Positions 10,482-64,000 of a stretch of 64,000 nt of DNA are shown here, piece by piece. The notes beneath the pieces were generated by a model that had not been told where the DNA came from, did not search any database, and saw only the letters and a list, made by a program, of their open reading frames with translations. The stretch comes from Isosphaera sp. Its GTDB lineage: Bacteria > Planctomycetota > Planctomycetia > Gemmatales > Gemmataceae. Position numbers and translations under genes: made by a program. Every line of letters begins with the position of its first letter. Positions within the stretch are counted from its first letter, which is position 1. The stretch covers positions 1-64,000 of the forward strand of contig PNKH01000017.1 in the NCBI GenBank assembly GCA_013822345.1, in the 5' to 3' direction.

Positions 10482-13400
10482 ATGTCCCGACTCGCACCCC
10501 TCGCCGTCCTCCTCCTCGCCGCCCCCGCCCCCGCCGCGGACGAGGTGCCGCCGGACAAACAGTACCTCGAGTTCGTCCGCAAGCAGGCCGCGGAGCTGCG
10601 GAAGAACGACAAGCCGCCCGCCACCGCCGACGAGTGGGCGAAGCAGGCGGCTGAACTCCGCAGGAACCTGTTCCGGGCGTGGGGCGGCGAGGCGTGCTTC
10701 CTCCCGAAGCCGTGCCCGCTCGACCCCCAACAACACGGCGACCCGCTCAAGCGCGACGGGTACACGGTCGAGAAGGTCACCTTCCAGACCCGGCCCGGCG
10801 TCCGCATGACCGCCAACCTGTACGTCCCGGACGCGGCGCGGAAGAAGCCGGCCCCGGCGATCCTGCAGGTCCACGGGCACTGGCGCGGGGCGAAGCAGGA
10901 CCCGGTGGTGCAGGCGCGCTGCATCGGGGCGGCGAAGCTCGGCTTCGTCGTCCTGTGCGTCGACGCCTTCGGGGCCGGCGAGCGCGGCGTCGGCACGGCC
11001 CTCGGCGAGTACCACGGGGACATGACCGCCGCCACGCTGCTGCCCGTCGGGCTGCCGCTGTCCGGGCTGCAGGTGTACGAGAACACGCGGGCGGTCGATT
11101 ACCTCGAAACCCGGCCGGAGGTGGACAAGACCCGGATCGGGATCACCGGGGCGAGCGGCGGGGGGAACCAGACGATGTACGCCGGGGCGTGGGACGAGCG
11201 GTTCAAGTGCGTCGTGCCGGTGTGCTCGGTCGGCACCTACCAGGCGTACCTCCAAGTGGCGTGCTGCATGTGCGAGGTGGTGCCGGGGGCGCTGGCGTTC
11301 ACCGAGGAGTGGGCGGTGCTCGGGCTGGTCGCCCCGCGGCCGCTGATGGTGGTCAACGCGACGAAGGACGGCGTCCAGTTCTCGGTCGGCGAGGCGAAGA
11401 AGTCGCTGGCGCTGACCGGGCCGGTGTACAAGTTGCTCGGCAAGCCGGACCACCTGCGGCACGCCATCTTCGAGGGGCCGCACGACTACAGCAAGGCGAT
11501 GCGGGAGGCGATGTACGGGTTCATGACGCTCCACCTGAAGGGCGAGGGGACCGGCGACCCGATCCCGGAGCCGAAGTTCGACACCGAGAAGCCGGAAGAC
11601 CTGCGGTGCTACCCCGGCGACACGCGGCCGAAGGACTTCATGACGATCCCGAAGTTCGCGGCGGCCGAGGGGAAGCGGGCGTCTCGCGTCGAACCTGTCC
11701 CGGCCGGGCCGGCGATGTGGTCGCTCCGCGCGTCCACCGCGATCGATCGACTCCGCGCGACCCTCCGGGTGCCGGAGCAGGACCCGGCGTGGCCCCGGGC
11801 GACGGCTGTACCGACCCCGGGTGGGCGAACCATCACCTTCACCCCGGAACCCGGGGTCACCCTGACCGCTCAGGTGGAACCTGGGAAGGGACCCGGACCG
11901 TTGGTCATCGTGTTGAAACTGGACGGTGCGGAAGCCACACGGAAAGGTGAGGTGTACGCCGGGCTGAAGAAGACAGCGGCGACCGTGGTCACCTTCGACC
12001 TCCGGGCGACTGGTCGGCTCGCGGTCAGTGGAGAGCGGGTCGGTCGGGCTCCCGACCACAACTCGGCGGAATGGGGGCTGTGGCTCGGGCGACCGCTGTT
12101 GGGGCAGTGGGCGTTCGACGTGATCCGCCTCCTCGACGCCCTCGGGGAGGTCGAGCCGGTCGTACCGAAGGATGTCATTCTGGTCGGCGAGGGGCCCGCG
12201 GGTGTGGTCGCGCTCGTGGCCACCGGGCTGGACACGTTCCGCATCAAGGGCGTGGCGGCGGTGAACACGCTGGCCAGTTTCGCGTCCGACTCTTCGTACA
12301 CCGGACAGCGCCTCGGCATCATCGCTCCCGGTTTCCTCCGCGAGGTGGGAGACGTCGGGACTCTTGCGGCTCAGTGCCTCCACCACCGGGTGGTCATCGC
12401 CGGCAGCGTCTCAGCGGCGGGCAAGAGCCTCAGCGCCGACGAGTTGGCCGCCGCCACCCGATTCGCTGGCGATGTCGCGAAGTTCCGTGGGAAGGACACG
12501 CCGCTGGTCGTCACTACAAGCCCGGCGGACGTGGTCAAGGCACTGGGGCTGACGCCGGCGGAAGGGAAGGAGGACGAGCCGATCTTCGAGCCGGGGGCGA
12601 AGCTCACGACCCTCGCCGGCGACGGCGCCGCCGGCGAAGGACCTGCGTGGGACCCGAAGCTCGGCGTCCTGACCAGCGGCGCGAAGGGGATCCACCAACT
12701 CACGCCCGACGGCACCACGAAGGTGTTCCGCGAGAAGGCCGGCACCAACGGGCTGCTGTTCGACCGCGCCGGCCACCTGGTCTGCTGCGAACCGGTAGCC
12801 CGCGTCGTCAGCCGCATCGACCGCGACGGCAAGCGGACCGTCCTCACCGACGCGTTCGGCGGCAAGAAGTACAACCAGCCCAACGACCTCACCATCGACT
12901 CCAAGGACCGCGTTTACTTCTCCGACCCGCGCTACGGCCCGCGCACCGACATGCAGCAGGTGGACGAAAAGGGGAACACCATCGAGGGCGTCTACCGCAT
13001 CGACACCGACGGGAAGGTTCACCGCGTCATCGGCCGGGAGGTGGAGCGGGCGAACGGCGTGTTGGTGTCCGCCGACGACAAGTTCCTGTTCGTCGCCGAC
13101 AACAACAACGACCAGGCCGGCGGGGCGCGGAAGCTGTACCGCTTCGACCTCAAGGCCGACGGCTCCGTCGACCCGAAGAGCCGGAAGTTGCTGTACGACT
13201 GGGGCAAGGGCCGCGGACCGGACGGCGTGAAGCAGGACGCGAAGGGCCGCTTGTACGTGGCGGGCGGGCTGAACAAGCCGAACCCGCCGGCCGAGCCGGA
13301 CGGGACGGTGAAGGGCGGGGTCTACGTGATCGACCCCGAGACCGGGAAGTTGCTCGCGTTCGTCGGCGTCCCGACCGACGAGGTGACGAACTGCGCGTTC

Positions 13401-52104: not shown

Positions 52105-52152
52105 TATGCCCGACAGGAGTTGAACCTGTAACCTTCGGCTCCGGAGGCGGAA
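52105..52152 (-). other. 3' fragment of tRNA-Arg(CCG), probable att site
   Basis: On the minus strand the order is an anticodon loop with CCG (CTCCGGA), the 3' half of the anticodon stem (GCCGA), a variable loop AGGTT and a T-arm (ACAGG TTCAACT CCTGT). The acceptor half CGGGCAT and a discriminator base follow. The D-arm and 5' acceptor half are missing, and the 5' anticodon stem has one mismatch. This is the usual scar of an element integrated into a tRNA 3' end. An intact tRNA-Arg(CCG) is predicted at the other end, beyond the window. Confidence 0.7.
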
Positions 52153-52383: not shown

Positions 52384-52950
52384 ATGAGCAGCCGTCGAAT
52401 GCCGTCCGCGCGGGCCCGGTCACACGCGGACGGGCTGACCCTCCCGCAGCAGAGCGCTGCCGACCTGCTGGCCGCCGGGAAGACCGATACCGAGGCGGCC
52501 GCGGCGCTCGGGCTGAGCCGGGTCACGGTCACCCGGTGGCGGCTGTACGATGTGGCCTTCGCTGCGGCCCTGGCGGAGCGGCGGGCCCACGTCTGGGGGT
52601 CGGCCGCGGACCGGCTCCGGGCCCTGATCCCGGCCGCCCTCGACGTTTTGGCCGACGACCTGAGCGCGGCGACCGGGGCGGAGCGGCGGGAGGTGGCCCT
52701 GGCGGTGCTGAAGCTGGCCGGCCCGCTCCCGGTCCCGCCGGCCGGGTCGACCGACTCGGAGGACTACGTCCGGGCGGCCGTCCACCGGGAGCGGGACCGG
52801 ATGCAGCAGAACCTGGATGCGGTGCGGTTCGGCCCGATGGGGCTGCCGGAGTACGCCGACCACCTGGAGCGGGTGCGGGACGACCTGGCCCGGCGGGCGG
52901 CCGCGGCCGAGGAGGCGTCGCCCCCGGGCGGCGGGTCGGGCGGGGGGTAG
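52384..52950 (+). CDS. Helix-turn-helix protein, phage terminase-small-subunit-like
   Basis: The 188-residue protein has a DNA-binding helix-turn-helix (SAADLLAAGKTDTEAAAALG, then SRVTVTRWRL). After it comes an RRAHVWGSAADRLRAL helix, as in the phBC6A51-type small proteins of phages. The C-terminus is charged and Pro/Gly-rich. It is the first gene inside the putative island. It could be a small terminase subunit or a regulator; the family does not separate these. Confidence 0.65.
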   Translation: MSSRRMPSARARSHADGLTLPQQSAADLLAAGKTDTEAAAALGLSRVTVTRWRLYDVAFAAALAERRAHVWGSAADRLRALIPAALDVLADDLSAATGAERREVALAVLKLAGPLPVPPAGSTDSEDYVRAAVHRERDRMQQNLDAVRFGPMGLPEYADHLERVRDDLARRAAAAEEASPPGGGSGGG

Positions 52951-53122: not shown

Positions 53123-53755
53123 ATGTGTCCCCGCCCGACGCCCCGGAAGCCGGAGCGGATCTCCGCCAAGCAGCAGGCGTTCGTCGGCGCGTACCTGCGG
53201 ACCCGGAACGCGACCCGGGCCGCGGTCGCCGCCGGGTACCCGGAGCGGTCCGCCCACACCCGCGGGAGCGAGCTCCTGGACGGGAAGACGTACCTGGTGG
53301 CGGCCGAGGTGCGGCGGCGGCTCGACGCGTTGGACAAGCGGGCGATGCTGGACGCTGACGCGGTGCTGTGGTACCTCCACGCGGCGATGCTGTTCTGCCC
53401 GGCCGACTACTGCCTTCCCGGCGACGGCGGGGGGCGGTGGCGGGCTGCGGCCGAGGACGTCCGGGCCTGGCCCCCGGAGGTCAAAGCCCTGGTCGAGGAG
53501 ATGGAGGTTCGGCCGGACGGGTCGGTCCGGGTGCGGTTCGTGTCGAAGGCGGCGGCGATGGCTCTGGCGGCGAAGTACCAGTTGGGCGGGAAGGCCCGGG
53601 TCGTGGTGCAGCAGATCGACTGGTCGGGGCTGCTGCGGGGCGGGCCGCCCGACCCGGACCCGGTCGAGGAGCGGATCCGGGCCATCGAGGCTCTCCCCGA
53701 CCCCGACCCGGCGGACGGCCCGGACGAACCCGCCCGGCACGGCAGCCCCGACTGA
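53123..53755 (+). CDS. Terminase small subunit-like protein
   Basis: The 210-residue protein begins with the Terminase_2 pattern: ISAKQQAFVGAYLRTRNATRAAVAAGYPE, with AQ/NAT-AA-AGY landmarks, then SELLDGKTYLVAAEVRRRL. Phage proteins of this kind bind the packaging site and regulate the large subunit. Here no large terminase, portal or capsid gene is present, so it is a satellite or remnant. It starts 170 bases after the HTH gene. Confidence 0.75.
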   Translation: MCPRPTPRKPERISAKQQAFVGAYLRTRNATRAAVAAGYPERSAHTRGSELLDGKTYLVAAEVRRRLDALDKRAMLDADAVLWYLHAAMLFCPADYCLPGDGGGRWRAAAEDVRAWPPEVKALVEEMEVRPDGSVRVRFVSKAAAMALAAKYQLGGKARVVVQQIDWSGLLRGGPPDPDPVEERIRAIEALPDPDPADGPDEPARHGSPD

Positions 53756-53886: not shown

Positions 53887-56800
53887 ATGGATGAGTTACT
53901 CCGCCGCTTGCGGTCCCTCCCCGGCAACCCCGGGACGTGGGGCTACCTCCTCTGCCCGCGGCAGCGCGTCCTGGACGGAGGCGGACGCGAGTTCCGGGAC
54001 GCCCCGGCGGAGGCCGTGGAGCGGCTCGGTGGGGAGGCCGTCGAGGCGTGGGGCCTGCTGACCGGGGCCGAGTCGAAGGACGACCTCGGGTGGTGCTGCG
54101 CGGCGGCCGCCAACCGGCCGTTCGCCCACGCCGAGGCGGGCCCGCTCCGCCGCCGGGCCCTCGACCACTTCGCGGCGGCGATGGTGCTCGGCTGGCTCCG
54201 GCACGCCGCCGACCCGAACAGCCTCGCCGCCCTGGAGGCGTGGCTCGCCCACTTCGCCCACCCGGGCGAGTTCCTCCCGCCCCTGCGGCACCACCTCGGC
54301 CGGCTCCCCCCGGGTGACCTGGCGGCGCGGGTCCAGGCGGCCGCCCGCCTCCTCCCGCCGGCGGCCGCCACCCGGCTCCGCCTCGCCGCCCGCCACCAAC
54401 TCCGGCTCCCGCTCACCACGCCGAACCCACCCCGGCCGGTGCGGGTCCACTTCCCGACCTACGACGACTTCACCCACGACGGCGCGGTCTACGCCCTCGA
54501 CCTGGAACTCCTGCCGGACGGCGACCCGGGTCTGTTCCCGGACCCGGCGTGCCTCGACCTGCCGACGGCGGGCGAGTTCCGCGCGGTCGTCGAGGCGGCC
54601 CACGGGCTGCACACCTTCCCCGGCCCGGTGGTGTGGGGCGTCCGGCGGCTGACCGACCCGACGGGCACCACCCAGACGGTCCGCGGGGAGTCGCACTCGG
54701 CCGCCGCCTGCGTCGCGTTCCGGGCGCTGGCCGCGAGCCGGGAGGTGGACCCGGGCTGTGTGCTCTCGGCCCAGTTCCCCTGGACGGTTGGCGACAGGGC
54801 CCCCGAGTGGGGGCGGCCGTCGTCCGCGCTCCGGGGTGTCGGGGGGCTGCGCGACAAGTACGAGGCGGTGTGCGCCCTCAACAAACCGCGGTTCGGCCGG
54901 TTCCTCCACAACGACCCGGCGTTCGCCCCGGCCCACCGGCCGGTACCCATCGACTGCCCGGCGACGCTGGAGGACGCCTACCAGATCGCGACCGGGCTGA
55001 TCGGCGAGGTCCGCCGGTACTACGCCGCCTGCGCCGCCTTCCTCGACCGCGACCGGGCCGTCTACCTCGGCGCCCGGCGGCTGTCCGACCTGTACATCGA
55101 GCCGGACGTGCTCCGGGACGTGGTCCGGCTGGAGCGGGAGCCGGCCGGCCGCGACCCGGAGGAGGGGCCGCCCGCCCCCGACGCCGGGCCGGACAAGGGG
55201 AAGCCGCGGGCCGGGGGCGACGCCTTGCCGGAGAAGGGGAGGCCGCGGGGCGAGAGCGGCACCGAGGAGAAGGTGAAGCTGCAGGCCGACAGCGACGCCG
55301 AGGAGAAGTTCCGGGACAAGTTGGTGGAGCGGCGGGAGCGGGTGGCCTGGAAGGCCGTGTGGCCGGGCGCCCGCCGGGCGGTGATCGTCGGCGACCCGGG
55401 CGAGGGGAAGTCGGTGCTGGCGAAGCACCTGCTGCTGGAACTCGCCGGACAGGGGGTCGCCGAACTCGACGCCGGCGGGAAGGCGGTCGGGGAACTCGCC
55501 ACCCCGGTGTTCGTCCGCCTGGCCGACCTGGCCGAGTCCGCGGACCCGGACGACGCGATCCGGGCCGCCGTGCAGCGGGTGGCCCCGCCCGGGCAGCCGT
55601 TCTCGGACGCGCTCGTCACGCACGTCCTCGAGACCGTCAAGAAGTCCGGCGTCCTCATCCTGGACGGGTTCGACGAGGTACCCAGTTCGGGGCACCAGCG
55701 GCGGTTGGATCACCTCCGGGCGGTGGCGGCATGGCCGTGCCGGGTGGTGCTGACGAGCCGGCCGTACGGGTACCAGCGGGGCGGGGTGCCGTTCCCGGAG
55801 GTGCAGGAGTTCGAACTGGCCCCGCTCGCCGACGGGCCGCGGGCGGCGTTCGTCGCCGCGTGGTTTCGCACCTCGGCCCGGCCGGACTGGCAGGCCCGGG
55901 TGCAGGAACTGGCGGCCGGGGCCGGCCTGCAGCAGATGTCCCGGAACGCGTTCCTGCTCACGCTCCTGTGCGCCGAGGCGGAGGTCCGGGACCTGCCGGC
56001 GAGCGCCCGGCGGCCGACCCTGTACCGCTGGATCGTCCTCGACCTGCTCCGCGGGGCGTGGCGGCAGGACCCGCCGCCGATCGACGAGAACGACGCGACC
56101 CTGGACGTCCAGCTCCGCGTCCTCCGTCGGGCCTGCTGGCACCTGCTCGGGCCGTCCCCGGCCCGGTACGCGTTCGCCCGGGACGAGTGGTTCGACGCCC
56201 TGGAGCAGGCCGGCTACAGCACCGAGCGGGCCGGGGCGCTGCTCAACGAGTGGCAGGCCCGCGGGGTGCTCCTGCCGCTGCTCGTCCAGCGGCACGGCGA
56301 GACGTCCCGCGGGTGGGCGTTCGCCCACCGGTCGATCCTGGAGTTCCTGGCGGCCGAGCACGTGGCCCGGCTGCCCGACCCGGTGGCCGCGATCAACCGC
56401 TACCTGTGGACGCCACCGCCGGACGGCCCGGAGACCTGGGAGCCGGACGCCCAGGAGTTCCTGCCGTTCCTGGCCGGGTGCATGACCGACCCGTCGTCGC
56501 TGCTCTCCCGGATGCTGGAACTCGACGCCCAGTTGCCGGACGCGCTGTACGTGATGGCCCGGCTCGCCGGGCGGTGCCTGACCGACATCGACGCCGACCG
56601 GCTGCGCCCTCCGGGGCTGCTCGACCAGGTGCTGGACCGGGCGGAGGGGGTGTACTGGGGTCTCGGCCGGACGCCAACGCTGGCCCGTGCGCTGGCCCAC
56701 CCGGCCGGGGTGCGGCGGCTCGAGCAGCGGCTAGCGGCTGATGGGTTAGCTGGGTTTCACGACGGTCACATTCTGATCAAGCAACTCGCTCCCGCATCTG

Positions 56801-58494
56801 GGACGCCGGGAGTTCTGGCCGCCCTCTTGGCCGCACTCCGGGGCGAAGACGAGGAGGTCCGGAGTGAAGCAGTCGGTGCCCTGGGCGGGGTGACGTGGGC
56901 CGGCCCGGGGGCGGTCGCCGCCCTCGTCGCCGGCCTCCGGGACGAAGACGAGGAGGTCCGTTACGGTGCGGCCGTAGCACTGAGGTCGCTCGGGCCGTGG
57001 GCCGGCCCAGGGGTGGCCGCCGCCCTCCTTGACACCCTTCGGGACCGGGACAACAACAAGGAACTCATCCGATCGGCGGCGAGGGCCCTGGGGTCGCTCG
57101 GGGCGGGTGCCGCACTCGTCACCGCCCTCGGTGACGAAGCCGTGTGGGTTCGCTCGGCCGCGGCCGAGGCTCTGGGCCGGATGGGGGCGGGGGCCGGCCC
57201 GGCGGGAGCGGCCGCGCTCGCTGCCGCCCTCCGAGACCCGGTCGTGCAGATCCGGGCAGAAGCGGCCACTGCCCTGGGGTCGTTCGGGACGGCGGTCGGC
57301 CCGGAGGCGGCCGCACTCCTTGACGCCCTCCGAGACCCGGCCAAATGGGTCCGCTCGGCCGCGGCCCGGGCGCTAGGCCGGCTGGAAGCCGCCGCCGGCC
57401 CGGGGGCGGGAGATGCCCTTCTCGCCGCGCTCCGAGACGCTGAAGGTGAGGTCCGTTACTACGCGGCCAAGGCGCTGGGCGGACTGGGGGCAGCCGTCGG
57501 TCCGGAGGTGGAGGCCGCCCTCGTCGCCGCCCTCCGGGACGAGAACGAAACGGTCCGCGTTGGCGCGGCCAAGGCGCTGGGACGGCTTGGGGCGGCGGCG
57601 GCCCTCGTCGCCGCCCTCCGGTACGAGGATAGGACGGTCCGCTCGGCCGCGGCCGAGGCCCTGAGGTCACTCGGTCCGGCGGCCGGCCCGGCGGGGGCGG
57701 CGGCCCTCGTCGTCGCCCTCCGGGACCGAGATTGGGGCGTCCGGATGTGGGCGGCCGAGGCCCTGGGTTCGTTCGGTCCGGCGGCCGGCCCGGCCGGGGC
57801 GGCCCTCGTCGCCGCCCTTCGGGACGAGAACGAATCGGTCCGCGCGGCCGCCGCCAAAACCCTTGGATCACTCGGGCCAGCCGCCGGCCCGGCGAAGGCG
57901 GCTCTTGTCGTCGCCCTCCGGGACCAAGGCTGGAAGGTCCGCCAAGCCGCAGTCGGGGCACTGGTGTCACTCGGGGCGGCCGGCCCGGAGTTGCTCGACG
58001 ACCTTGTCGCCGCCCTCCGGGACACACACCGCCTTGTCCGCTCCACCGCGGCCCACGCCTTGGGGGTAACCGCCGGCCCGGCGGGGACGGCAGCTCTCGT
58101 CGCGGCCCTTCAGGAAAAGGACGGGGCGGTCCGCGCGTCCGCAGCCGACGGCTTGTGGTGGGTCGGGCTGGGGGTTGGCCCCGCGGGGGCGGCGGCCCTC
58201 GTTGCCGCCCTCCAAGACCAGGATGGGGCGGTCCGCGAGGCCGCGGCCCGGGCCCTCGGCTCGGTGGGTCCGGAGGCTGGCACCGGGGTGGACGGCGCCC
58301 TCCTCGCCGCCATCCGGGACCCCGGCAAGGAAGTTCGTCTGGCCGCGGCTCAAGCGCTGGGAAAAAGGGGGGTGACCAGCCCGGGGGCGGTAGCCTCCCT
58401 CCGAGTCGCACTCTCGGACGGGCACGGCGAGGTATGCGTGGCCGCGGCGAAAGCACTCGAGCGGCTTCTCAACCACCGCAATCGTGTTCCATGA
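53887..58494 (+). CDS. Lon-like Ser/Lys domain + NACHT NTPase + HEAT-repeat protein
   Basis: The 1535-residue protein has an N-terminal region with a Lon-protease-like signature: S269 in RGESHSAAACVAFRAL and K324 in VGGLRDKYEA. A linker with LSDLYIEPDV follows, then a NACHT NTPase with Walker A GDPGEGKS (502-509), Walker B VLILDGFDEV (589-598) and the sensor-like LTSRPYGY. After FAHRSILEFLAAEH come 17 HEAT repeats of about 31 residues (976-1535). I infer a STAND-type sensor: HEAT repeats recognise something, NACHT oligomerises, and the Lon-like domain cleaves proteins. It has a paralogue at 61.5 kb. Confidence 0.85.
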   Translation: MDELLRRLRSLPGNPGTWGYLLCPRQRVLDGGGREFRDAPAEAVERLGGEAVEAWGLLTGAESKDDLGWCCAAAANRPFAHAEAGPLRRRALDHFAAAMVLGWLRHAADPNSLAALEAWLAHFAHPGEFLPPLRHHLGRLPPGDLAARVQAAARLLPPAAATRLRLAARHQLRLPLTTPNPPRPVRVHFPTYDDFTHDGAVYALDLELLPDGDPGLFPDPACLDLPTAGEFRAVVEAAHGLHTFPGPVVWGVRRLTDPTGTTQTVRGESHSAAACVAFRALAASREVDPGCVLSAQFPWTVGDRAPEWGRPSSALRGVGGLRDKYEAVCALNKPRFGRFLHNDPAFAPAHRPVPIDCPATLEDAYQIATGLIGEVRRYYAACAAFLDRDRAVYLGARRLSDLYIEPDVLRDVVRLEREPAGRDPEEGPPAPDAGPDKGKPRAGGDALPEKGRPRGESGTEEKVKLQADSDAEEKFRDKLVERRERVAWKAVWPGARRAVIVGDPGEGKSVLAKHLLLELAGQGVAELDAGGKAVGELATPVFVRLADLAESADPDDAIRAAVQRVAPPGQPFSDALVTHVLETVKKSGVLILDGFDEVPSSGHQRRLDHLRAVAAWPCRVVLTSRPYGYQRGGVPFPEVQEFELAPLADGPRAAFVAAWFRTSARPDWQARVQELAAGAGLQQMSRNAFLLTLLCAEAEVRDLPASARRPTLYRWIVLDLLRGAWRQDPPPIDENDATLDVQLRVLRRACWHLLGPSPARYAFARDEWFDALEQAGYSTERAGALLNEWQARGVLLPLLVQRHGETSRGWAFAHRSILEFLAAEHVARLPDPVAAINRYLWTPPPDGPETWEPDAQEFLPFLAGCMTDPSSLLSRMLELDAQLPDALYVMARLAGRCLTDIDADRLRPPGLLDQVLDRAEGVYWGLGRTPTLARALAHPAGVRRLEQRLAADGLAGFHDGHILIKQLAPASGTPGVLAALLAALRGEDEEVRSEAVGALGGVTWAGPGAVAALVAGLRDEDEEVRYGAAVALRSLGPWAGPGVAAALLDTLRDRDNNKELIRSAARALGSLGAGAALVTALGDEAVWVRSAAAEALGRMGAGAGPAGAAALAAALRDPVVQIRAEAATALGSFGTAVGPEAAALLDALRDPAKWVRSAAARALGRLEAAAGPGAGDALLAALRDAEGEVRYYAAKALGGLGAAVGPEVEAALVAALRDENETVRVGAAKALGRLGAAAALVAALRYEDRTVRSAAAEALRSLGPAAGPAGAAALVVALRDRDWGVRMWAAEALGSFGPAAGPAGAALVAALRDENESVRAAAAKTLGSLGPAAGPAKAALVVALRDQGWKVRQAAVGALVSLGAAGPELLDDLVAALRDTHRLVRSTAAHALGVTAGPAGTAALVAALQEKDGAVRASAADGLWWVGLGVGPAGAAALVAALQDQDGAVREAAARALGSVGPEAGTGVDGALLAAIRDPGKEVRLAAAQALGKRGVTSPGAVASLRVALSDGHGEVCVAAAKALERLLNHRNRVP

Positions 58495-58511
58495 GGTCCG
58501 TCCTGCTGCAA

Positions 58512-59711
58512 TCAGGCCGGAGAGGTTGGCACACCCACACCCGGCGAGGTCAGACCATCGTCGCCGTCCCCGCGAGCGCGACAGACACGACAGTCCCGGT
58601 CGGCCGGCATCATCGGTCGCAACAAGCCGGGCAGCCCGTCCCCGGACAAGTCGCCCTGCAGCCAGACGCTGTCCGCCGACCGCCGCCGGGTCAGGAACTG
58701 CTCCACCAGCGTGAACCCCAACCCCACCGCCCAGGTGTTCAGCGACCGCAGCGACCCGAGCCGGGGGGCGACCGCCCCCGACCCGTCACCCCCGCCCACG
58801 CAGCCCGCGCACCGGCCCGGCAGCAGCCACCGCACGTCCACCCCCGCCTGACGCCCGCCCGGCCCCCGCACCACCCCGGTCCCGAGGTCGAGGACCGGCT
58901 TCAGGTACAGGGCCGCCACCCGGGCCGTCGCCACCCGCGCCGCCGGGTTGTCCGGGCAGCTCACCACCACGTCCGCCGCCTTCAGCGCGAACAGGGCGTC
59001 GAGCGACTCCACCGGGGCCGCGACCGCCGACACCCGGCCGGCCGGCGACCCCCGCCGCAGCCGCTCCGCCACGGCCTCCGCCTTCCCCCGCCCGACGCTC
59101 CCGTCCAGGCCCCCGGCCATCTCCCCGAGGTTGTGCGGCTCCACCACGTCCGGGTCGATCAGGGCCAGCCCGGCCACCCCGTACCCGGCCACGTGGTCCG
59201 CCACCAGGGACCCGGTCCGCCCGCACCCGACGACCGCGAACCGGAGCGCCCGCAGCCGGGCGAACGCGGCCTCCCCGAGCGCCCCGATGGTGCGGGAGAA
59301 CCGCTCCCGGGTCGGGCCGTCCGGCCCGCCGGCCGGCCCCGGCCGCAGGTCCAGCCGCGGCAGCCCGGGGGCGACCACCCGGACGGCCGCGAGCGGCCAC
59401 GTCTGCCCGTGCAGCCGGACCAGCCCGGCGAGGTGGCCGGCCGCGGCCCCGACCCCGACCCCGAGCACCACCCGGGCGTCGGCGGCCGCGGCCCGCACCG
59501 CCTCGCCCAGCACCTCCGGGTGGGCGGCGCGGACGGCCACCAGCCCCGGGCGGTCGGCGGGTTCGGCCTCCGACCGGCCGACCAGCCACTCCCACCGGTC
59601 GGCCAGCCGGGACAGCCCGCACGGCGCCCGCACCCGGTCGGCCCCGGCCGCGAGCCGGCGGACCAGGTCGGCGAACGGGGCCGAGGCGAGGACGAGTTCG
59701 TGCGTATCCAT
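58512..59711 (-). CDS. ThiF/E1-like adenylyltransferase with degenerate JAB region
   Basis: The 399-residue protein has a central E1-like Rossmann domain: RALRFAVVGCGRTGSL, ALIDPDVVEPHNLGEM, VVVSCPDNPAAR. Two Cys pairs (CAGC and CRVC) probably bind zinc. The N-terminal 140 residues keep the closing pattern of JAB/ThiF fusions (AAVRVVAPGLPRL), but the HTHPG metal motif is reduced to AAHPEV, so the peptidase half looks dead. It should adenylate the C-terminus of a small protein. It converges on the NACHT-HEAT gene with 17 bases between stops. Confidence 0.85.
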   Translation of the reverse strand: MDTHELVLASAPFADLVRRLAAGADRVRAPCGLSRLADRWEWLVGRSEAEPADRPGLVAVRAAHPEVLGEAVRAAAADARVVLGVGVGAAAGHLAGLVRLHGQTWPLAAVRVVAPGLPRLDLRPGPAGGPDGPTRERFSRTIGALGEAAFARLRALRFAVVGCGRTGSLVADHVAGYGVAGLALIDPDVVEPHNLGEMAGGLDGSVGRGKAEAVAERLRRGSPAGRVSAVAAPVESLDALFALKAADVVVSCPDNPAARVATARVAALYLKPVLDLGTGVVRGPGGRQAGVDVRWLLPGRCAGCVGGGDGSGAVAPRLGSLRSLNTWAVGLGFTLVEQFLTRRRSADSVWLQGDLSGDGLPGLLRPMMPADRDCRVCRARGDGDDGLTSPGVGVPTSPA

Positions 59712-59767
59712 GACGGGGGGCGGGGGGGGAGGTGGCCGGGGGCGGGCGGCCGCCCCCGGCGGGGCGG

Positions 59768-59953
59768 TCAGTCGTACTGGTACGCGGTGCGGCGGACCGG
59801 CTGCGGGGCCGGGGCCGGCGCCTCGGCCGCCGGCGGGGCGGCCGCGGCGGTCACCAGGTCGGCGAACTCCTTGGCGTACCGCGCGGGCGGGACGGCGGGT
59901 CGCGGCTCCGGTCGCGGCTTCGGGTTGGGCTTCGGCAGGACGAGCGTGTCCAC
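59768..59953 (-). CDS. 61-residue Pro-rich protein, likely ThiF partner
   Basis: A GTG start with GGGAG 8 bases before it opens a peptide with a Pro-rich N-terminus (PKPNPKPRPEPRP). A short helical stretch (ARYAKEFADLVTAAA), an Ala/Pro linker and the end RTAYQYD follow. The ThiF gene follows 56 bases downstream on the same strand, so the peptide is its likely partner or substrate. It does not look like ubiquitin or have a Gly-Gly end. Confidence 0.6.
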   Translation of the reverse strand: MDTLVLPKPNPKPRPEPRPAVPPARYAKEFADLVTAAAAPPAAEAPAPAPQPVRRTAYQYD

Positions 59954-60082
59954 GGTCGGTACTCCCGGTGGGTTGTGAGCGGGGGGATGCCCCCGACCGG
60001 GGTTACGCGGCGGGCGGGGATTTTCTTCGGCCGCCGGCGGCGGGTATGATGACCGGACGAACGCCAACCCCGGGGGACGGGC

Positions 60083-60403
60083 ATGGACCCGACGGACGAG
60101 CGGTTGCTGCACGACTTCTACGCCTGCGACGCGGCGGCGCTCGAGCGGCTGGCCGCCCGGCACGACCCGCTCCTGGCCCGGGTCGCCCACCTGATCCTGG
60201 TCGCCCGGACCGGGTCGCAGGTTCAGGCGCTCGGCGAGTGGGACATCGACGACCGGCTGAGCAACGTCTGGGCGCACGTGCTGATGACCAAGATGACCGG
60301 CCTGGCCGTCTGGCCGCACCAGCGGCTGACCGCCCTCGCCTGGCTGCTCCACCTGCTCGCCCTGGAGATGGACCGGCACCTCGGGTTCCGCCCGCCGTTC
60401 TGA
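60083..60403 (+). CDS. Sigma-region-2-only small protein
   Basis: The 106-residue protein reads like sigma-70 region 2 alone: DERLLHDFYACDAAALERL, then IDDRLSNVWAHVLMTKMTG (the EDLxQEVF-like helix), then LTALAWLLHLLALEMDRHLG. There is no region 4. It lies 68 bases before a full ECF sigma gene. It may be a split or regulatory sigma-like protein. It is divergent from the ThiF pair. Confidence 0.6.
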   Translation: MDPTDERLLHDFYACDAAALERLAARHDPLLARVAHLILVARTGSQVQALGEWDIDDRLSNVWAHVLMTKMTGLAVWPHQRLTALAWLLHLLALEMDRHLGFRPPF

Positions 60404-60471
60404 GAAAAGCGCGAAGGGATTCCCGGCCCGGCGCGTACTCCGTCCGAGGCCCCACTCCGGGAGGACCACCG

Positions 60472-61005
60472 ATGTGCACGCCGTCCGGCCCCCCGCCCAC
60501 CCCCGACTGGCTGGTGGAGCTGATCCGCCAGCACCTCGACCGGCTGTACGCCTTCTGCCGCCGGCTGGTCTGGGACGAGCACCGGGCGGAGGACCTGGCG
60601 GGCGACGTGATCGTGCTCGTCCTCCGGAAGTGGTCGAACTACGACCGCGGCCGCCCGTTCTGGCCGTGGCTCTGGCGGCTGGCCGTCCGGCGCTGGCAGA
60701 CCGAGTGCCGGCGGCATCGGGTCGGCGAGCAGCCGTTTCTGGAGGATGCCGACTCGGACCGCGAGGGCCGCGAGCCGGACGCGCTGGACGACCTCGTCCG
60801 GCGCGAGGACCGGGACCGGGTGCGGGCGGCGGTGGACGCCCTCCCCGACCACCTCCGGGGGGTGGTACTGTTGAGGTACGCCGACGGGCTGGACTGCCCG
60901 GACATCGCGGACGCGCTCGGCGTGCCGGTGGGCACCGTGTACCGCCGGCTGTACGACGCGAAGCAGCGGCTGGCCGGGGACCTCGGCCAACTGTCGGGCG
61001 GCTGA
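60472..61005 (+). CDS. ECF-type RNA polymerase sigma factor
   Basis: The 177-residue protein contains region 2 (LYAFCRRLVWDEHRAEDLAG, FWPWLWRLAVRRWQTECR) and region 4 (LPDHLRGVVLLRYADGLDC, GVPVGTVYRRLYDAKQRL). No anti-sigma gene is next to it. It is followed by a small unknown gene and the second Lon-NACHT gene on the same strand, so it may control that unit. The ATG follows a GGGAGGA site. Confidence 0.9.
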   Translation: MCTPSGPPPTPDWLVELIRQHLDRLYAFCRRLVWDEHRAEDLAGDVIVLVLRKWSNYDRGRPFWPWLWRLAVRRWQTECRRHRVGEQPFLEDADSDREGREPDALDDLVRREDRDRVRAAVDALPDHLRGVVLLRYADGLDCPDIADALGVPVGTVYRRLYDAKQRLAGDLGQLSGG

Positions 61006-61050
61006 CCGCCCGGGAATCGAGACCGGTTCGCACCCCAACCCGAGGCCGCC

Positions 61051-61509
61051 ATGAACCCCGACCCGAAGCCGCCGCTCGCCGACCTGTACCCGCTGCCCGA
61101 CGGTGTGAAGATCCGCACCCGGAAGTTCGGGGCGAGCCCGGGCACCCCGCTGAAAGACCTCCCACCGGACGGCCCCCAGGCCGACTCCGGCCCCCCCCGC
61201 CGAGAGTTCGTGTTGTCGGGCGAGTACAAGGACCTCGGCATCACCGTCCGCGTGCAGGAGGTTCCGGGGAGCGGCCGCCTCGTCGCCGACGTGTTCAGCA
61301 CCGACCCGACCCACCTGAACACCGCGGCCGTGTCCGTGGCCCTCGTCGGGACCGACGAGGACCGGATGATCCGGAAGACGATCCCGCTCGACGTGCCTGA
61401 GCAGGCCGGCGGGTACCGGTGCAGCGGGTCGGCCGACTTCGGCCCGCTTCCCGACGTCCGCGCCGAACTCGGCACCAAGCTCGGGCTAGTCGTGTTCCTG
61501 GTCGTCTGA
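61051..61509 (+). CDS. Small protein of unknown function in the sigma-NACHT unit
   Basis: The 152-residue protein has a Pro-rich N-terminal half. A beta-rich C-terminal half follows (REFVLSGEYKDLGITVRVQE, AVSVALVGTDEDRMIRKTI, ending GTKLGLVVFLVV). No domain is recognised. It lies 45 bases after the sigma factor and 21 bases before the Lon-NACHT gene, so the three are probably one transcript. It has no signal peptide, so a cytoplasmic partner of the NTPase is possible. Confidence 0.65.
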   Translation: MNPDPKPPLADLYPLPDGVKIRTRKFGASPGTPLKDLPPDGPQADSGPPRREFVLSGEYKDLGITVRVQEVPGSGRLVADVFSTDPTHLNTAAVSVALVGTDEDRMIRKTIPLDVPEQAGGYRCSGSADFGPLPDVRAELGTKLGLVVFLVV

Positions 61510-61530
61510 CGCCCGGCCCGGAGGCCGTCC

Positions 61531-64000
61531 GTGAAGAGGTTGCGCGCCCGGCTCGGGGGCACGTTCGACCGCTGGGACTCCCGCGCTTGGCCCGACCTGC
61601 TCCGGGCCGGGCCGAAGGATCCGAACGCCCTGGAGGCGGACTGCCGGGACTTCGTCGGCTGCCCGTCGGCCGAGGTGGAAGAGTTCCAGCGGCAGGCCGA
61701 GTTGGCGTGGGCGGCGTTCGGCGGCGCCGACGCCTCGGTGGTGATGGGCGCGTGCTGCGGGGACGGGCACGGCCGCGCGCCCGAGTTCCGCGGCGCGGAC
61801 CCCGCCCGGCTGCTCCGCAACGCCCGCCGGTTCTTCGCCGCCGGCATGGCCGCCGGCCACCTCCGCCACCCGCGCACCGGCGCCGACTTGGACGCCCTCG
61901 GCGCCTGGGTGGCACGGTTCGCGGGCATCCCCGTCGGGTCGGTCCGCGGCGACCTTGGCCGGCTCGGGGACGGGGCGATCGACCTGGACCGACTACTCCG
62001 GCTCCTGCCGCGGGCGGAGTGCCTCCCACTCCGGCTCCACCTCGACCACTTCCTCGGCGTCAACCGGCCCGACCCCGCCGTGACCGTCCGGTTCCCCACC
62101 TACGACGGCGGCACGAAGCAGGGGGCCGTCCGCGCCCTCGACCTGTGGCACGTCCCCGACTCCCCCGCGCTGATCGAGCACCCCGGCGGCTCCGCCGTCC
62201 CGCTCGCGCCGAACCTGCTGGCGGTGATCGGACGGGCCCACGCCCGCTGTCGGTTCGACGGGGTGGTGGTGTGGTCGCTGCGGACGGAGTACGAGGACCC
62301 GGAGCTGACGCCCCCGCAGTCGGGGCGCGTCCGCACCGTCGGGGGCGAGTCGCACACCCTGGCCGCGTGCGTCGGGTTCCGGGCGCTGGCGGAGGAGAGG
62401 CGGGTCGACGTCGGGTGCTTGATGTCGGCCCAGTTCGACCCGGGGGCGTGGGCGGACGCGAACCCGGCGCTGCGGCCCGTCGGGGCGGAGCCGCAGAAGG
62501 CCGAGGCGGCGTGCCGGTTCGGCCACCTCGACCGGTTCCTGATCGCCGCCGACTCGAAGTTCGAGGACGGCCGGCCGGAGAGCCATTCGGCCGGCGGCCG
62601 CAGCATCGCGCTCGTCCGCCCGCGGACCCTCGACGAGGCGTACGACGACGCCACAGGGCTGACCGCCGGCCTGGAGGCGTACCTGGTGCACGCGGCCGGG
62701 CTGCTCGACGCCGTCACCCCGCGGTACTTCGGCCGCCGCCGCAAGCTGTCCGACCTCTACATCGAGCCGGAGGTGTTCAAGGACGAGGTGGAACTGAAGC
62801 GGGACGAGACGCGCCCCGGCCGGGAGGACGACGCCGACCGGCCGGCCGGGAAGCCGCCGTTCGAGGTGGCGGACGCGACGGCCGAGTTGATCCGGTACTA
62901 CCGGGAGCAGCTGAAGAACACCCGCCACCGGTGGGCGGACGAGTGGCCGAGGGTGCGGCACGCGGTGGTGGTCGGGTACCCCGGGGACGGCAAGTCGGTC
63001 CTCGCCCGCAGGCTGGTCCACGACGTGGCCGGGCAGGGCCTCGCCGACCTGCGGGACGGGGCCACGCCGACCGCCCGGGTGCGGCTCCCGGTGTTCGTCC
63101 GCCTGGAGGAGGTCGGGCGGAAGAAGTCGCTCGCGGCGGCGGCACTCGATGCCCTCCCGGCCGGCACCCCGGACGTGGTGAAGGACGAGATTAAGAAAGT
63201 CCTCACCCCCGATCCGGACGCGAAGGACACGCCCGACAAAGTCCCCACCGGCGACCGGGCGTGGGTGGTGCTGGACGGGCTGGACGAGGTGACCGAGACC
63301 GACCTGCCCGCCGTCCAGAACCTGATCAAGGACCTGATGGGGCGGGAGTGCCACGTCCTGGTGACGAGCCGGCCGTACCGCTACCGGAAGGGCGACTTCA
63401 ACCTCCCGACGATCACCGAGTTCAAGCTCGCCCCGCTCGACGACCGGCAGCAGGCGACGTTCCGCAAGGAGTGGTTCGAGCGGGCAGCGAACCCGGACCG
63501 CCGGGCGGCGGTCGAGGCGCTGGCCCGGGGCAACCCGTCGGTCGCCGAGATGGGGCGGAACGCCCTGCTGCTGAGCCTGGTCTGCGCCGTGTCCGAGGAG
63601 AAGGACCTCGACCCGCAGAACACCCGCCGGCCGGACGTGTACGAGGCGATCGTCGACCAACTGTACCGCGCGGTGTGGAAGGAGACGCCGACCGAGCAGG
63701 AGGATCTGGCGACGCAGATCAGCGTCCTCCAGCACGTCTCATGGCAGTTGTTCCGGAAGAACCCGGCCGGCTGGTCGTTCCACGCGACGAAGGAGTGGGT
63801 GCCGGCGATCGAGAAGGCACGGCGCGGGAAGCTGGACATGACGGTGGCGACGTTCCGGCGCGGGTTGCGGGCCTCCGGGCTGGTGGTGGACACGGGGAAC
63901 GGCACGGAGGCGTTCCTGCACCGTACGTTCCTGGAGTACTTGGCGGCGGCCCACGTCGCCACCCTGGACGACCCGGCAGCCGAGTTCGGACCGTTCCTGT
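61531..64000 (+). CDS. Lon-like Ser/Lys domain + NACHT NTPase, 3' end outside window
   Basis: At least 823 residues are visible from a GTG start. The N-terminal region carries S274 in GGESHTLAACVGFRAL and K323 in PVGAEPQKAEAA, matching the Ser/Lys pair of the 53.9 kb protein. The shared linker KLSDLYIEPEV follows, then NACHT with Walker A GYPGDGKS (482-489), Walker B VVLDGLDEV (579-587) and VTSRPYRYR. The same FLHRTFLEYLAAAH helix appears near the window edge. Whether HEAT or other sensor repeats follow cannot be seen. Confidence 0.85.
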   Translation, partial: MKRLRARLGGTFDRWDSRAWPDLLRAGPKDPNALEADCRDFVGCPSAEVEEFQRQAELAWAAFGGADASVVMGACCGDGHGRAPEFRGADPARLLRNARRFFAAGMAAGHLRHPRTGADLDALGAWVARFAGIPVGSVRGDLGRLGDGAIDLDRLLRLLPRAECLPLRLHLDHFLGVNRPDPAVTVRFPTYDGGTKQGAVRALDLWHVPDSPALIEHPGGSAVPLAPNLLAVIGRAHARCRFDGVVVWSLRTEYEDPELTPPQSGRVRTVGGESHTLAACVGFRALAEERRVDVGCLMSAQFDPGAWADANPALRPVGAEPQKAEAACRFGHLDRFLIAADSKFEDGRPESHSAGGRSIALVRPRTLDEAYDDATGLTAGLEAYLVHAAGLLDAVTPRYFGRRRKLSDLYIEPEVFKDEVELKRDETRPGREDDADRPAGKPPFEVADATAELIRYYREQLKNTRHRWADEWPRVRHAVVVGYPGDGKSVLARRLVHDVAGQGLADLRDGATPTARVRLPVFVRLEEVGRKKSLAAAALDALPAGTPDVVKDEIKKVLTPDPDAKDTPDKVPTGDRAWVVLDGLDEVTETDLPAVQNLIKDLMGRECHVLVTSRPYRYRKGDFNLPTITEFKLAPLDDRQQATFRKEWFERAANPDRRAAVEALARGNPSVAEMGRNALLLSLVCAVSEEKDLDPQNTRRPDVYEAIVDQLYRAVWKETPTEQEDLATQISVLQHVSWQLFRKNPAGWSFHATKEWVPAIEKARRGKLDMTVATFRRGLRASGLVVDTGNGTEAFLHRTFLEYLAAAHVATLDDPAAEFGPFL

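Follow-up and report, generated by a model that had tools for sequence, protein, structure and literature searches.

Two large proteins encoded near one another in an Isosphaera sp. genome, here called A and B, raise the question of whether a bacterial NACHT switch can carry a Lon-like protease as its effector and, if so, what such a protease would act on. The window, which is the whole 64,000-nucleotide stretch of DNA that was analyzed, contains all of A but only the first part of B (Table 1). Protein B overruns the window end, and contig C17 of the same assembly gave its full length of 1435 residues. An earlier note on this DNA had described the two proteins as sharing an N-terminal region, a YIEP linker, and a NACHT NTPase, with a GES serine followed by a lysine 55 residues later in one protein and 49 residues later in the other. 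All of these features were recovered. Both open reading frames were confirmed, and their N-terminal regions share 39% identity across 391 residues (E 6e-50). The linker reads SDLYIEP at residue 400 of A and residue 407 of B. The NACHT domains match PF05729 (Pfam, E 3e-10 in both proteins) and retain intact Walker A (GEGKS in A and GDGKS in B) and Walker B (LDGFDE and LDGLDE) motifs. The candidate dyad is Ser269 in GES and Lys324 in VGGLRDK in A (spacing of 55) and Ser274 in GES and Lys323 in VGAEPQK in B (spacing of 49). What did not hold was the assignment of HEAT repeats to only one copy. This was an artifact of the window edge because the HEAT array of B starts just beyond it (HEAT_2, E 6e-72 in full-length B; the array of A has E 2.4e-76). 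A and B are the only two copies in the source genome.

Table 1. Positions in the window of the two large proteins, their neighbors, and the left end of the element that carries them.
Feature	Position	Strand	Evidence or remark
Left end of element: 44-bp perfect copy of 3' part of tRNA-Arg(CCG)	52105..52148		Right copy at contig bases 77447-77490
HTH protein, weak terminase small subunit match	52384..52950	+	Part of carrying element
Phage terminase small subunit (Terminase_2)	53123..53755	+	Part of carrying element
Protein A, 1535 aa: N-terminal helical region, Lon-like S16 domain, SDLYIEP linker, NACHT, HEAT array	53887..58494	+	ORF, Pfam, model
Lon-like (S16-fold) region of A; Ser269 codon 54691-54693, Lys324 codon 54856-54858	54433..55080	+	
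NACHT NTPase of A, residues 497-661, Walker A and B intact	55375..55869	+	Pfam, motifs
HEAT repeat array of A, about residues 960-1535, putative sensor	56764..58491	+	Pfam
ThiF/E1-like protein, 399 aa, adenylating-domain motifs kept	58512..59711	-	Pfam ThiF, E 3.9e-25
Sigma-70-family (ECF-like) factor, 177 aa	60472..61005	+	Sigma70_r2, E 8.5e-13; r4_2, E 3e-12
Small protein, 152 aa, disordered N-terminus and beta sandwich	61051..61509	+	47% identical to gene in same place in G075; model
Protein B, window part (first 823 of 1435 aa); rest to contig base 65838, with HEAT repeats	61531..64000	+	
Lon-like region of B; Ser274 codon 62350-62352, Lys323 codon 62497-62499	62074..62742	+	
NACHT NTPase of B, residues 478-651, Walker A and B intact	62962..63483	+	Pfam, motifs

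Both proteins have the layout of bacterial NLRs, which is an N-terminal effector, a NACHT domain with Walker A and B motifs, and C-terminal repeats. Neither has the AAA+ module that adjoins the protease domain in Lon; a NACHT domain is present instead, C-terminal to the protease domain. No SAVED sensor was found on A or B, and the Pfam scan returned only families of the NACHT-type NTPase and HEAT types.

Family libraries did not identify the N-terminal domain. Pfam gave no match to Lon_C in A or B at E values up to 1, and PADLOC made no Lon call on either protein. When the residues of each N-terminus were shuffled, the pattern G-x-S followed by G[G/A]xxxK at the given spacing arose in 0.2% of shuffles for A and 1.3% for B. 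Conservation in relatives, as judged from aligned sequences, is stronger evidence than this shuffle test. A single-sequence scan of the genome contigs found no relative, and a two-row profile searched across the phylum gave only weak matches of 53 to 58 residues (G264 and G474). A profile of A and B recovered one relative within the family (G075, MAG UBA4732), and a profile of these three sequences recovered G541, G053, G720, and others in the class. A later search of 198 genomes with an eight-row profile added G052 and G594. No relatives were found in the plasmid and viral scans. An oxidoreductase-like open reading frame (G494) and a histidine-kinase-like one (G490) were rejected as relatives because their profile matches look like chance.

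When eight divergent relatives were aligned, the only invariant columns were G267, S269, and K324 (A numbering). The G720 protein has GPSAG and VGGVPDKL, and when 873 residues of it were scanned against Pfam, Lon_C alone matched (E 0.036); the G053 protein also matched Lon_C in Pfam (E 0.021). E. coli Lon has catalytic residues Ser679 and Lys722, a spacing of 43, compared with 42 in G075. A profile of the eight relatives aligned with seven Lon domains from the same phylum (probability 95.4%, E 1.9e-8), serine on serine and lysine on lysine, which bears out the Lon register that the earlier note had proposed. With only A, B, and G075 in the profile, the comparison with Lon gave P 7e-6. Searches of the PDB returned Lon in 41 of 43 matches for the eight-row profile (best match LonB, E 1.4e-7), and all five chains matched by the three-row profile were Lon (best E 0.015). 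Over the 198 genomes, the eight-row profile also matched Lon genes that PF05362 detects (for example, G507:C211 and G499:C8). The placement of a catalytic serine and lysine in Lon register rests on these profile alignments and on invariance in the eight relatives, not on a side-chain distance.

Other Lon-related observations were made in these genomes. The source genome gave only one partial match to PF05362 (profile positions 130-189), and no ordinary Lon of full length was detected in it; several genomes of the same genus resemble it in this result. G487 encodes a stand-alone 474-residue protein (L033 937-2361) with a Lon-like Ser/Lys region and no Pfam Lon call. In G539, a gene near a sigma-like gene (L107 6948-9080) encodes a 710-residue protein that contains a Lon-like GRSAEVA motif and whose C-terminus is hydrophobic and membrane-like. 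Possibly it represents another sigma-linked Lon-like family.

Three genes beside A and B, encoding a ThiF/E1-like protein, a sigma factor, and a small beta protein, were not mentioned in the earlier note. The ThiF domain is E1-like, as in bacterial E1/E2/JAB conjugation systems, and the protein matches PADLOC E1-E2 models (E 2.5e-16). Among the cassette proteins scanned, none was recognized as an E2, a ubiquitin-like protein, or a JAB. The N-terminal ~120 residues of the ThiF-like protein matched no family; on visual inspection, this part might be a degenerate JAB-like domain, comparable to the JAB-E1-like open reading frame of G480. The model of the small protein (four sequences, mean pLDDT 73) has a disordered N-terminus and a seven-strand sandwich. 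Its best structural matches were SIAH and TRAF/MATH domains, with Z about 8 (8.2), a value that is borderline by the guide of the tool, and Foldseek on this model found nothing below E 0.02. From this prediction, the protein could be a TRAF-like adaptor that binds peptides, although this is unproven. A role as a classical anti-sigma factor is not supported by the model, which is unlike known anti-sigma factors and gave no anti-sigma match.

These genes recur with the Lon-like domain in other genomes. The earlier note had named a search for the same gene order in other Gemmataceae as a check. G075 has ThiF (45% identity), sigma, small (47%), and Lon-NACHT-HEAT genes arranged as in the window; of the 95 genomes of the family, 2 matched the A1 profile. 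In G075, a change of frame near 12050 interrupts the Lon-NACHT gene (L011 11980-12060), and this copy is either broken or misassembled. The full set of ThiF, sigma, small, and Lon-like NACHT/STAND genes is found in four genomes (that of the window, G075, G053, and G052). In G053 and G052, the Lon-like gene is separate and the NACHT/STAND gene ends in an FGE-like domain. Three further genomes have partial sets. G288 has ThiF, sigma, and a separate Lon-like gene with STAND genes; G720 has ThiF and two Lon-like-STAND-FGE proteins; and G541 has a sigma gene and a 2438-residue Lon-NACHT protein, with no ThiF within the 20 kb examined. The sensor ends of the relatives thus differ, being HEAT or FGE-like. 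That the Lon-like and NACHT/STAND parts are fused at some loci and encoded by adjacent genes at others (G053, G052, and G288) argues for a functional link between the protease and the switch.

An ECF sigma gene in the operon, a feature of Calp, is present in the window, and sigma-like genes are also present in G075, G053, G052, G288, and G541. The matches in G075 (E 0.0066) and G053 (E 0.049), both of the Sigma70_r4 type, are weak and less certain. Close relatives of the ThiF protein are rare. Only 10 of 392 genomes of the phylum have one at E <=1e-25, and beyond its own genome only that of G288 falls below 1e-40. Therefore, the recurrence of ThiF beside the rare Lon-like gene is unlikely to be chance, although no formal test was made. 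The ThiF profile matched only distant E1 domains among viral sequences.

It is probable that A and B are bacterial NLR-type proteins in which NACHT gates a Lon-like protease effector. Their architecture, the homology to the Lon fold, the conserved dyad, the intact NACHT, the cassette, and the carrying element were demonstrated, and the activity, gating, target, and defense role are inferred. The NTPase-gated protease effector of the earlier note is supported by sequence and by the predicted fold; proteolysis and antiviral function are still inference. The C-terminal HEAT array, as the likely sensor, would first bind a trigger or ligand. The central NACHT NTPase would be the switch, oligomerizing on ligand binding, as inferred from STAND proteins, and the oligomers would bring the N-terminal Lon-like Ser-Lys protease domains together. 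Because Lon domains function as rings and CalpL is activated by oligomerization, we infer that proximity could switch on target-specific cleavage. As in Calp and craspase, the likeliest output would be limited proteolysis, with the sigma factor released or activated as a result. Craspase is reportedly a protease linked to an ECF sigma factor. In Calp, oligomerized CalpL (Lon-SAVED) cleaves the anti-sigma factor CalpT, which frees the ECF sigma factor CalpS (PMC11417357). For the cassette, control of a sigma factor by a protease in this way is plausible, but there is no proof of it. Release of the sigma factor is the most economical specific model because the sigma gene adjoins the Lon-like gene, and we favor it by analogy, but only tentatively.

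Next after sigma release, and the main alternative to it, is general killing by a toxic protease. NACHT would unleash cleavage of essential host or phage proteins on infection, the outcome would be abortive infection, and the sigma factor would only control expression of the cassette. The effector-NACHT-sensor layout is the standard one (PMC12169576), and the dyad is conserved regardless of neighbors; no sigma gene was seen on the G720 contig, which is only 11 kb. However, a sigma gene is beside the Lon-like gene at six of the seven loci with useful flanks. Furthermore, CalpL, a defense effector with a Lon domain, has one dedicated substrate (PMC11417357). On this evidence a toxic protease is possible, but less likely than not.

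Another alternative retains the Lon-like domain without its chemistry. An AlphaFold model of A residues 1-417 was built from eight sequences; its mean pLDDT was 64.5 overall and mostly 78 to 90 in the Lon part. A fold unrelated to S16/Lon would have refuted the earlier note. Instead, residues 183-373 of the model matched Yersinia Lon in VIA-align with a Z of 18.8 (158 residues, 2.1 Å) and E. coli Lon with a Z of 18.4, and the model of A thus has the fold of the Lon proteolytic domain. The presence of an S16/Lon-fold domain in A and B is supported by sequence comparison and by this prediction. However, RadA, ComM, and BrxL have Lon folds without protease activity, so the fold alone is no proof of proteolysis. 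These proteins are also close structural matches, appearing with Lon among the Foldseek matches listed (best E 2.7e-6), and the domain of A and B could likewise be a nonproteolytic scaffold that aids oligomerization or DNA binding. The local Ser/Lys motifs are not textbook, with GES in place of the usual GPS and, in B, VGAEPQK rather than VGGxxxK. The low pLDDT of the model as a whole and the lack of Lon_C in the Pfam results for A and B also count against a protease. Yet the serine and lysine are two of the three invariant columns in the eight divergent relatives, and a scaffold need not keep them; one relative (G720) even retains the exact GPSAG and VGGVPDK. The invariant pair argues for proteolysis, an activity that is inferred from conservation without peptidase data, and we consider a scaffold unlikely.

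The earlier note had placed the two proteins in a putative defense island. The cassette is instead cargo of a 25-kb element integrated at tRNA-Arg, not part of a classical island. The tRNA-Arg(CCG) gene with the matching 3' part sits at the right end of the element. Between the att repeats are terminase small-subunit genes, the cassette, a ParB/topoisomerase-like gene, a TOTE-primase/D5 helicase gene, and a tyrosine integrase; no phage structural genes were found among the genes scanned. With an integrase, att repeats, a replication gene, and few phage structural genes, the element is integrative and satellite-like; mobilization by a helper phage was not shown. No single contiguous match to an empty integration site was found in related species. 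Two element genes downstream of B (L004 2891-3952 and 4020-4706) have no Pfam match, and the first looks GTPase-like by eye (GREHSGKT).

Phage satellites carry antiviral genes (PMC9122126). Carriage of the cassette as element cargo fits a role in anti-phage defense or in conflict between element and phage. A point against such a role is that the system is rare, and its link to phages rests on the carrying element alone. A module for planctomycete cell regulation or development rather than defense, which the sigma factor, the E1-like partners, and the many regulatory STAND proteins of planctomycetes might suggest, is improbable, as it does not sit well with the patchy distribution in the family or with integrative-element cargo, fast divergence, and paired copies, all of which are typical of conflict systems.

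The NLR-type reading with a Lon-like protease has parallels in several known systems and differs from each. Where CalpL has a cA4-binding SAVED domain, A and B have NACHT and HEAT (or, in relatives, FGE-like) domains; the cassette adds an E1-like partner, and its third protein is a predicted beta sandwich not shown to be an anti-sigma factor. A and B resemble bNACHT proteins such as bNACHT25 (PMC12169576) in having an N-terminal effector, a central NACHT, and a C-terminal sensor. However, the bNACHT effector in that study is a PD-(D/E)XK nuclease, whereas A and B have a Lon-like protease effector, a HEAT sensor, and a multigene cassette. The likeness to Lon protease (S16) lies in the fold, the positions of the Ser-Lys dyad, and the local register; in contrast to Lon, A and B lack the Lon-type AAA+ unfoldase and carry the domain at the N-terminus, linked to a NACHT switch. 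The ThiF/E1 adenylating domain is shared with type II CBASS and bacterial ubiquitin-like systems (E1-E2, Cap2-like), but the cassette has no recognized E2, ubiquitin-like protein, or JAB. The ECF-sigma-linked caspase/TRADD-N systems of multicellular bacteria (PMC8195603) also link a protease and an ECF sigma factor in gene neighborhoods, with STAND NTPases in the wider network, but their proteases are caspases or trypsins.

The word Lon does not appear in two surveys of conflict systems of multicellular bacteria (PMC8195603 and PMC7159879). No description of Lon combined with NACHT, STAND, or ThiF was found in the open literature searched, subscription papers being outside its scope. A bacterial NLR that has a Lon-like protease as its effector and belongs to a cassette with a sigma factor is absent from the papers searched and from the family libraries consulted. 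The cassette proteins offer clear residues for mutation.

In animals and plants, NLR-type sensors signal to proteases and to transcription. It is possible, although we offer it as a conjecture, that the cassette is a non-CRISPR counterpart of Calp and craspase, in which an NLR-type sensor would activate a Lon-like protease, which would free an ECF-like sigma factor and so reprogram transcription during phage infection, with the E1-like enzyme adding a modification step and satellites carrying the set between planctomycetes. If this is true, then a Lon-fold protease has been placed directly on a bacterial NACHT switch and linked to a sigma factor, and protease-to-sigma signaling would be a logic common to several unrelated bacterial immune sensors, namely those of Calp, craspase, and this cassette.
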